The position numbers and the translations under genes were made by a program. Shown here one piece after another: positions 37,811 to 40,989 of a DNA stretch of 64,000 nucleotides (position 1 is its first letter; every line of letters starts with the position of its first letter). Source of the stretch: Actinoalloteichus fjordicus (GTDB lineage: Bacteria > Actinomycetota > Actinomycetes > Mycobacteriales > Pseudonocardiaceae); contig NZ_CP016076.1 of NCBI RefSeq assembly GCF_001941625.1, positions 7,052,001-7,116,000 on the forward strand. The letters run 5' to 3'. The notes beneath the pieces are model-generated. The model saw only the letters and a list, made by a program, of their open reading frames with translations, ran no database searches and was not told the origin of the DNA.

Positions 37811-40702
<2,892 letters not shown>

Positions 40703-40763
40703 GGGTCCGTTCCTTCCTCTTGGTCGCCTCGGCAGCCACGTGTGCGCCCCGAACAAGACGAAA

Positions 40764-40791
40764 CCCCTCCGCCCAGATGGGACGAGAGGGG
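40764..40791 (-). terminator. Attenuator terminator in the leuS leader
   Basis: On the transcribed (minus) strand CCCCTC and GAGGGG form the stem (arms 40786-40791 and 40764-40769), extended by an inner GTCCCA/TGGGC pairing. It is followed by TTTCGTCTTGTT. It lies 60-90 bases before the leuS start codon, so it can stop transcription before the gene. Confidence 0.7.
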
Positions 40792-40793
40792 CT

Positions 40794-40827
40794 GCCGCGT
40801 CGACCCTTCCTAGCTGGTCAACGCGGC
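40794..40827 (-). promoter_or_regulatory. Leader hairpin overlapping the leader-peptide stop codon
   Basis: GCCGCGTTGACC (40827-40816, minus strand) pairs with GGTCGACGCGGC (40805-40794) over 12 bases with one G-U wobble and a 10-base loop. The leader-peptide stop codon lies inside the first arm, so a ribosome stalled at the Leu codons or at the stop would block this hairpin. Confidence 0.7.
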
Positions 40828-40856
40828 GTACTAAGGAGCAGGCGACCCGTGCTCAT
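40818..40856 (-). CDS. leuS leader peptide with three consecutive Leu codons
   Basis: The 12-codon reading frame encodes [12 protein letters not shown] and stops at TGA. The three Leu codons are CTG-CTC-CTT; CTT is rare in such GC-rich genomes. A TATGCT -10-like box (40863-40868) ends 6 bases before the ATG, so the message would be leaderless. It is followed in order by a long hairpin, a terminator-like hairpin and leuS. This is the arrangement of ribosome-mediated attenuation: low charged tRNA-Leu stalls the ribosome and permits leuS transcription. It is too short to appear among ordinary gene predictions. Confidence 0.75.
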
Positions 40857-40862
40857 CGGCCA

Positions 40863-40883
40863 AGCATACCGGGGCCGCCCCGG
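40863..40883 (-). promoter_or_regulatory. Promoter of the leuS leader
   Basis: The -10-like TATGCT (40863-40868) is preceded by a perfect inverted repeat CCGGGG-ccg-CCCCGG (40869-40883) that fills the -10/-35 spacer and could be a regulator site. No good -35 is visible. Confidence 0.5.
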
Positions 40884-40989
40884 TGCCGACGAGCCGTGTC
40901 GGTCGCTGGACACCGCGCGCGCGTGACGGCGACCACGGCATGACGAGGGTGACCTCCGGCGTGCTCCGATCAGCGCTTACCCTGCTGGA

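Follow-up and report, generated by a model that had tools for sequence, protein, structure and literature searches.

The leucyl-tRNA synthetase gene (leuS) of Actinoalloteichus fjordicus is preceded by a leader that we read, with a probability of roughly one half, as a leucine-responsive, ribosome-mediated transcription attenuator that would operate without an antiterminator. A ribosome stalled by leucine starvation probably keeps leuS on via a conserved switch in this leader. The usual teaching is that attenuation selects one of two hairpins that overlap. Here the hairpins abut rather than compete, an arrangement that looks unusual and recurs at genes for isoleucine and branched-chain amino acids. 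The leader frame, the two hairpins, their conservation, covariation and spacings, and the lack of the usual alternative pairing in our models all come from sequence comparison and folding.

Organisation of the leader upstream of leuS

The window analysed is a stretch of 64,000 nucleotides (contig NZ_CP016076.1, positions 7,052,001 to 7,116,000), and coordinates refer to it unless stated otherwise. The elements of the leader lie on its minus strand:

40863..40868, minus: -10 element TATGCT (sequence), with a leaderless transcript start predicted at 40856
40818..40856, minus: leader peptide frame ATGAGCACGGGTCGCCTGCTCCTTAGTACGCCGCGTTGA, 12 residues, leaderless (sequence; frames of the same kind in relatives)
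40833..40841, minus: putative control codons CTG-CTC-CTT, the third being CTT in 44/46 leaders
40828..40832, minus: 5-nt gap from the third Leu codon to the base of H1 (5 nt in 41/46 leuS leaders, 3-4 nt in the other five)
40816..40827, minus: H1 arm 1 (GCCGCGUUGACC), with the leader stop codon inside (fold; covariation)
40794..40805, minus: H1 arm 2 (GGUCGACGCGGC), flush with the terminator hairpin (fold; covariation)
40762..40793, minus: terminator-like hairpin T (AGCCCCUC...GGGGUU, inner stem), 0 nt after H1 (folds)
40752..40763, minus: U-rich tail UUUCGUCUUGUU, its start overlapped by T (sequence)
37811..40702, minus: leuS, the presumed controlled gene, with its ATG at 40702 and purine-rich AGAGGAAGGA just upstream

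A first-pass annotation, made from the sequence alone, had proposed the -10 box, a leaderless 12-codon frame with CTG-CTC-CTT, a 12-bp hairpin with the leader stop codon in its first arm, and a second hairpin with a U-rich stretch ahead of leuS; each of these elements was recovered from the minus-strand sequence. The frame (ATG AGC ACG GGT CGC CTG CTC CTT AGT ACG CCG CGT TGA, from 40856 on) has its ATG at 40856, 6 nt downstream of the -10 element, and its TGA at 40820-40818. Given these 6 nt, the peptide would be leaderless, provided that transcription starts at the A of the ATG. By eye, no good -35 element was seen upstream of this -10 element. The first hairpin, H1, is made of 12 bp including one U-G pair (40827-40816 with 40805-40794), T spans 40793-40762 and is followed by its tail (40763-40752), and 49 nt separate the tail from the ATG (40702) of leuS, which we take, by its resemblance to LeuRS, to encode leucyl-tRNA synthetase. 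The predicted fold of the 105-nt leader has an energy of -55.0 kcal/mol (z = -4.24), and 0/200 shuffles were equally stable. No Rfam family, T-box included, was found in the window at gathering scores, and an Rfam scan of eight leuS- and cimA-leader loci at E <= 0.05 returned only two tRNAs and one weak sRNA match below its gathering score.

Two features had been picked out as exceptional. The leaderless state of the peptide is in fact ordinary, as the same has been described in S. lividans for the leader peptides of leuS, leuA, trpE and other genes (PMC8079986; here and below, published systems are described as given in the available excerpts of the cited papers). The other feature, an inverted repeat with 8-bp arms and a 1-nt centre (40868-40884) that shares the first T of the -10 element, is real and perfect, but does not stand out: it is one of 16 perfect inverted repeats of that kind in the window (against 4, 5, 7, 7 and 4 in five shuffles) and is imperfect at both congeneric loci, and on these grounds we rejected it as an operator.

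Conservation across actinomycetes

Loci of leuS were collected by a protein scan of named genomes, and the best 80 of a longer list were searched. A leaderless frame containing a run of three Leu codons was present, no more than 420 nt upstream of leuS, at 43 of these best 80 named loci, against 0.06 expected by chance from dinucleotide shuffles; the short Leu frame, whose presence in relatives had been proposed as a check, is kept. A TAnnnT at leaderless distance was part of the search pattern in these 43 relatives, so it is supporting, not independent. The carriers among the best 80 comprise 28/28 Streptomyces and 15/52 others (Amycolatopsis, Lentzea, Saccharopolyspora, Actinophytocola, Micromonospora, Plantactinospora, Paractinoplanes, Blastococcus, Geodermatophilus, Brachybacterium and one MAG). 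The strict frame pattern was not found at 37 of the best 80 named loci, among them 15/15 Mycobacteriales (Rhodococcus, Prescottella, Nocardia, Gordonia, Mycobacterium and kin, Corynebacterium) and leuS of Kibdelosporangium, Actinomycetospora, Frankia, Catellatospora and Acidimicrobiia. Both congeners carry the leuS leader, and in one of them (L004) the stop lies one codon past the Leu run.

A covariance model built from 30 leaders matched the leuS leader of the window's own genome at E = 1.4e-18 (the window being in the training set); at E <= 0.01 no second copy was found in that genome, where two weak matches had E values of 2.4 and 5.4. At the same threshold the model matched 127/150 family genomes (42/46 genera) and 201/394 class genomes (80/138 genera), tallies of model matches rather than of checked leuS leaders, since they include cimA leaders and the weakest matches may have arisen by chance. 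Eighty model matches, picked by hand for second copies and for spread over families, were fetched; leuS lay downstream in 69 of them (tblastn) and cimA in eight, two were unrelated (L175 and L176), and one was incomplete (L195).

The CTT at the end of the Leu run is a rare codon, accounting for 7 of the 197 Leu codons across four window genes. It is also the last Leu codon in 53/64 further leuS leaders (defined below). A conserved CUU has likewise been named as a control codon in C. glutamicum ilvBNC (PMC11857589). The residue after the Leu run is mostly Ser or Thr.

Covariation and two fixed spacings

We folded 46 leaders (the 43 relatives, the window and the two congeners), all found by the frame alone with structure unused, from 2 nt past the Leu run. 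H1 and T formed together in 46/46 of these stall-state minimum-energy folds. The gap between the Leu run and H1 was 5 nt in 41 leaders and 3-4 nt in five (with the control codon of L016 assigned by hand as the Leu codon next to H1), and the spacer between H1 and T was 0 nt in 38, 1 nt in five and 2 nt in three, the zero spacer being read from minimum-energy folds, which lengthen helices where possible. Other parts vary: H1 spans 30-79 nt, and the stop codon lies 1, 4, 8 or 14 codons past the Leu run. Between the stop and the first C of T lie 22-67 nt, with a median of 44.5; this distance is at least 27 nt in 38/46 leaders and 22-26 nt in the other eight, the window (26 nt) included. Of the 43 leaders with a TTT tail behind T, 42 had an H1 with at least seven basal pairs in position, against 5/430 shuffles.

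The hairpins, whose covariation in relatives had been proposed as a check, are conserved, and H1 covaries. Six of its 12 pairs changed on both sides, for example from C-G to U-A at two positions. In an alignment (A1) of 30 of the 46 leaders, with 15 Streptomyces and L003 left out, the whole-structure covariation score was 0.210 versus 0.132 in shuffles (reached by 0/500) and at most 0.094 when the structure was slid along the alignment; 91.8% of cells were paired, which was equalled by 0/500 shuffles and by no slid version. Other measures on A1 were weaker, the count of pairs changed on both sides being reached by 25/500 shuffles and that of further pair types by 67/500, and the loop-side end pair of H1 was unpaired in 21/30 sequences.

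The 69 leuS matches of the covariance model, less three with no leader frame (L177, L178 and L185) and two with no LL run (L218 and L235), gave a further set of 64 leaders, which is supportive only, since the model was trained on the same geometry. A TTT-tailed T was present in 46 of the 64; in these the gap was 5 nt in 32, 4 nt in 12, and 3 and 2 nt in one each, the spacer was 0 nt in 39, 1 nt in five, and 5 and 22 nt in one each, and H1 with at least seven basal pairs was in place in 42/46, against 12/460 shuffles. The script-found T had no TTT behind it in 3/46 leaders of the first set and in 18/64 of the further set; inspected by eye, 17 of these 21 have hairpins at most 3 nt apart, the exceptions being L165, L170, L188 and L194.

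Search for an antiterminator

Attenuators act during RNA synthesis, and we therefore folded RNA that ends before the 3' arm of T and asked if the 5' arm of T is captured upstream. In the stall state the RNA was open from 2 nt past the Leu run, and in the stop state from 9 nt past the frame. The control leaders thrL, leuL, trpL and pheM of E. coli gave pairing of 0.83-1.00 in the stall state versus 0.01-0.17 in the stop state; hisL gave 0.81 and 0.80, without contrast, and the test thus fails on one of five controls. A pattern search for a Streptomyces trp leader as an extra control was negative in two genomes. For the 46 leuS leaders the mean pairing of the T 5' arm was 0.15 in the stall and 0.31 in the stop state (window, 0.27 in the stall state), and stall-dependent capture, that is stall exceeding stop by 0.2, was found in only 2/46. 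Slightly different limits gave stall and stop means of 0.16 and 0.40 for leuS (43 leaders), 0.17 and 0.34 for the further leuS leaders (46), 0.14 and 0.28 for cimA (44) and 0.19 and 0.37 for ilvB, the last resting on the 25 of 30 leaders caught by another pattern.

Counting contiguous extension only, 0/46 leaders share 2 nt or more at the boundary between H1 and T. In the window with arm 1 masked, T can gain 4 bp over a bulge by pairing of arm 2 with the U-rich tail. No common pattern of pairing between the Leu codons and the terminator or the leuS ribosome-binding site, in the style of the LEU element, was seen by eye. Equilibrium folding with a masked ribosome was rejected as a test, as E. 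coli thrL, leuL, trpL, hisL and pheM keep their terminators in it too; hisL also has abutting hairpins in equilibrium folding. Of the attenuation proposed in the first-pass annotation after the trp, his and leu operons, the leaderless leucine leader peptide with an attenuator-like structure stands, whereas alternative pairing of the trp, his and leu type finds no support in the models (mean of 0.15 in 46 leaders).

A proposed docking model and its alternatives

From this layout we infer a course of events that runs from the transcript start and the leucine response to docking, occlusion and termination. Transcription would begin at the A of the leader ATG, where a 70S ribosome would initiate at once. 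With ample Leu-tRNA, the ribosome would reach the leader stop codon in or near arm 1 of H1, covering most of that arm, and keep H1 open; standing there, at least 22 nt from the T stem, it would allow T to fold, and transcription would end before leuS. With scarce Leu-tRNA, the ribosome would stall within the Leu run, mostly at its third codon, the rare CUU, with its leading edge just touching the base of H1, which would form. When the third Leu codon occupies the A site, the start of H1 is 5 nt downstream, close to the mRNA entrance of the ribosome; the spacing of frameshifting structures is 5-9 nt. By docking the stalled ribosome, H1 would place it at 3-7 nt from T (in the window at 5 nt, with the 5-nt gap and no spacer), cutting the path between them from 37-83 nt to 3-7 nt. 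The docked ribosome would hinder folding of T, RNA polymerase would read through, and leuS would be made. Without any ribosome, H1 and T would form side by side and transcription would terminate. Docking would account for both fixed spacings, for the free length of H1 and for low expression without translation.

The effect of such a distance has been measured in E. coli, where moving a stop codon to 5 bp before a terminator lowered termination from ~90% to <10%; termination was near its maximum with the stop >27-30 nt away and, with the stop at 17-18 nt, was 12% or 80% depending on sequence, and the repression of the terminator vanished when translation was uncoupled (PMC4824070). On this scale, which comes from another terminator and another host than the leuS leader, the shortening of the path by H1 would correspond to a change from no repression to full repression, and the window stop, at 26 nt, is slightly under the E. 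coli threshold, on the border of the safe range. In C. glutamicum ilvBNC, replacement of the leader start codon lowered expression by 80%, and a VVV-to-AAA change abolished valine-dependent expression (Morbach et al. in PMC11857589); the low expression without translation agrees with what docking requires. Several observations count against docking. Replacement of the possible control codons before ilvB of S. coelicolor reportedly had no effect (cited in PMC1262725), a stall on the first Leu codon would leave the ribosome 6 nt too far upstream for the geometry, some terminators have weak U-tracts, and the strict frame is absent at the 37 of the best 80 named loci mentioned above, all 15 Mycobacteriales included. 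Equilibrium folding does not discriminate, since E. coli attenuators keep their terminators in it.

An alternative pairing could exist after all, with H1 or another upstream pairing taking bases of the T stem in the manner of trp and his or of C. glutamicum ilvBNC. For leuS in S. coelicolor and S. avermitilis, attenuators of the classical kind were described, comprising antiterminator and terminator hairpins (PMC1262725), the antiterminator and terminator of ilvBNC are adjacent too (PMC11857589), and T of the window can extend 4 bp into arm 2 when arm 1 is masked. We nevertheless consider such pairing unlikely, given stall-dependent capture of the T 5' arm in only 2/46 leaders and 0/46 boundaries with 2 nt or more shared (contiguous extension only); extension of T through the tail would, moreover, probably need bases still held in the RNA-DNA hybrid. 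The 0-2 nt between H1 and T in 46/46 leaders, and the failure to find base-pair competition, would also suit a role of H1 alone, whereby a preformed, abutting H1 cannot be accommodated within the RNA exit channel at the base of T and the ribosome matters only by opening H1 on reaching the stop. The gap of 3-5 nt from the control codon to H1 would then go unexplained, and an untranslated leader should be read through, whereas loss of the start codon in ilvBNC, a related but not the same leader, cost 80% of expression (PMC11857589); we judge this explanation quite unlikely.

The formation of H1 and T together in 46/46 stall-state minimum-energy folds would equally fit an effect of the opposite sign, in which H1 helps T as part of a tandem terminator and leader translation, by opening H1, raises read-through, so that leuS would track translation capacity rather than leucine starvation. 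This explanation would not account for the conserved Leu run, the rare CUU (44/46) and the Ile run before an isoleucine-pathway gene, and appears very improbable. That there is no regulation, and that a chance frame happens to stand ahead of an ordinary terminator, is hardly credible in the face of the conservation, covariation and spacings. If, on the other hand, docking by H1 is the true mechanism, many leaders of high-GC bacteria would be misjudged or overlooked in searches for alternative pairing, and attenuators could be sought by a rule of two simple distances. Docking also offers an explanation, open to test, of how leucine would control leuS across the orders of actinomycetes.

Relation to known attenuators

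LeuL2 of S. lividans TK24, located before leuS, is a leaderless 12-residue peptide with LLL (MRAVRLLLSEPR), followed by a hairpin and a uridine run (PMC8079986). The window has the same arrangement, a leaderless 12-residue frame with three Leu codons upstream of leuS, with a hairpin and a U-rich tail in between. It differs from LeuL2 in coming from another order, and the two fixed spacings, the covariation and the absence of an antiterminator do not figure in the available portion of the LeuL2 description (PMC8079986). Attenuators of leuS had been predicted in 2005 in S. coelicolor and S. avermitilis (Seliverstov et al. 2005, PMC1262725), and these have the gene, a leader peptide and a terminator in common with the window. 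As excerpted, the 2005 predictions are of the classical kind with an antiterminator, whereas our test found none in the 46 leaders, which include 28 from other Streptomyces strains. The leuS leader of the window is a further member of this known set, and the novelty lies in how its mechanism is read and in the cimA leader described below. The literature on leuS attenuation that we found consists of RNA-seq annotation and prediction, with no experimental test among it.

With trp-type attenuators the leuS leaders share a leader peptide with control codons and a terminator hairpin with a U-tract (structure and tail predicted), but not an antiterminator that takes up the T 5' arm on stalling (mean pairing 0.15, compared with 0.81-1.00 in the controls). 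The 'fast' attenuator of C. glutamicum ilvBNC has a GCC trinucleotide that belongs to both its antiterminator and its terminator, which its authors call the hallmark (PMC11857589); in ilvBNC and the ilvB-II motif, the leader begins 1 nt from the transcript start and has conserved CUU and GUA control codons, with experimental support (PMC11857589, PMC10272879). The two hairpins of the leuS leaders are adjacent as well (0-2 nt in 46/46), but lack the shared boundary (0/46 share 2 nt or more), and ilvBNC differs in having an extra hairpin that covers the ribosome landing region. At tR2 of E. coli (PMC4824070, where pyrBI is also discussed), a ribosome near the terminator prevents termination, as proposed here; there the closeness is given by the linear position of the ribosome, whereas in leuS it would be brought about by H1 looping out 30-79 nt. 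The LEU element of leuA in Actinobacteria (PMC1262725) also has a leucine leader peptide, leaderless in S. lividans (PMC8079986), and is set apart, as described, by a pseudoknot of the Leu codons with a Shine-Dalgarno box and, in S. lividans, by the lack of a typical terminator.

Leaders upstream of cimA, ilvB and a second leuS gene

The work on leuS points to an isoleucine leader before the citramalate-synthase gene (cimA). The eight cimA loci among the 80 fetched model matches carry an Ile run in the leader (for example MNTSRVIIIAKRAG). At L171 a 156-residue protein fragment matched the NCBIfam family TIGR00977 (E = 6e-52, 176.6 bits; as a fragment, below the whole-protein cut-off), and the other seven genes were named by similarity to L171. 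A cimA protein search of 60 family genomes gave a match in 56, and the upstream regions of 50 were examined (L239-L288). An Ile-run leader precedes cimA in 44/50 of these genomes, by a loose frame rule that allows internal starts and a loose -10 and has no shuffle control of its own; many of the leaders have leaderless spacing, although this rule does not establish the leaderless state of each. The window's own genome is among them (VAHHGMIIIA, L269; G000:C1:6116583-6117700, minus strand).

Counted from the last Ile of the run, the gap to H1 in the 44 cimA leaders is 5 nt in 36 and 4 nt in eight, and the H1-T spacer is 0 nt in 41 and 1 nt in three. In an alignment (A2) of 38/44 leaders, six being omitted by hand, 5/11 pairs of H1 changed on both sides and the covariation score was 0.119 versus 0.086 in shuffles (0/500 reach it), while further pair types were not above shuffles (480/500 reach the count). 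Leu codons at leuS and Ile codons at an isoleucine-pathway gene are the match expected if the codons are sensors. We found no report of a cimA leader in the open-licence literature.

A leaderless leader with Ile, Leu and Val codons precedes ilvB in 28/30 genomes (L291-L320; own genome, L301), for example VLRLTNILVLPWRADA. H1 is flush with T in all of these (0 nt in 28/28), and the gap is 2-7 nt depending on the run end chosen. Tentatively, the three leaders may represent an antiterminator-free class of attenuators in actinomycetes, in which a hairpin of free length would bridge a ribosome, stalled on hungry codons about 5 nt ahead of the hairpin base, to a flush terminator, with termination shut off by the ribosome itself, and which would serve leuS, cimA and ilvB with Leu, Ile and Leu/Ile/Val codons, respectively.

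In several genomes a second and diverged gene for leucyl-tRNA synthetase comes with its own leader, for example VSTGFLLLTKPC, which resembles the Micromonospora-type leader. The loci concerned are L159/L160 (G109), L161/L162 (G360), L163/L164 (G112), L166/L168 (G145), L165 (G149) and L170 (G069). The second synthetase is 40-53% identical to that of the window over the first matched stretch, and its gene may have been acquired jointly with its leader.
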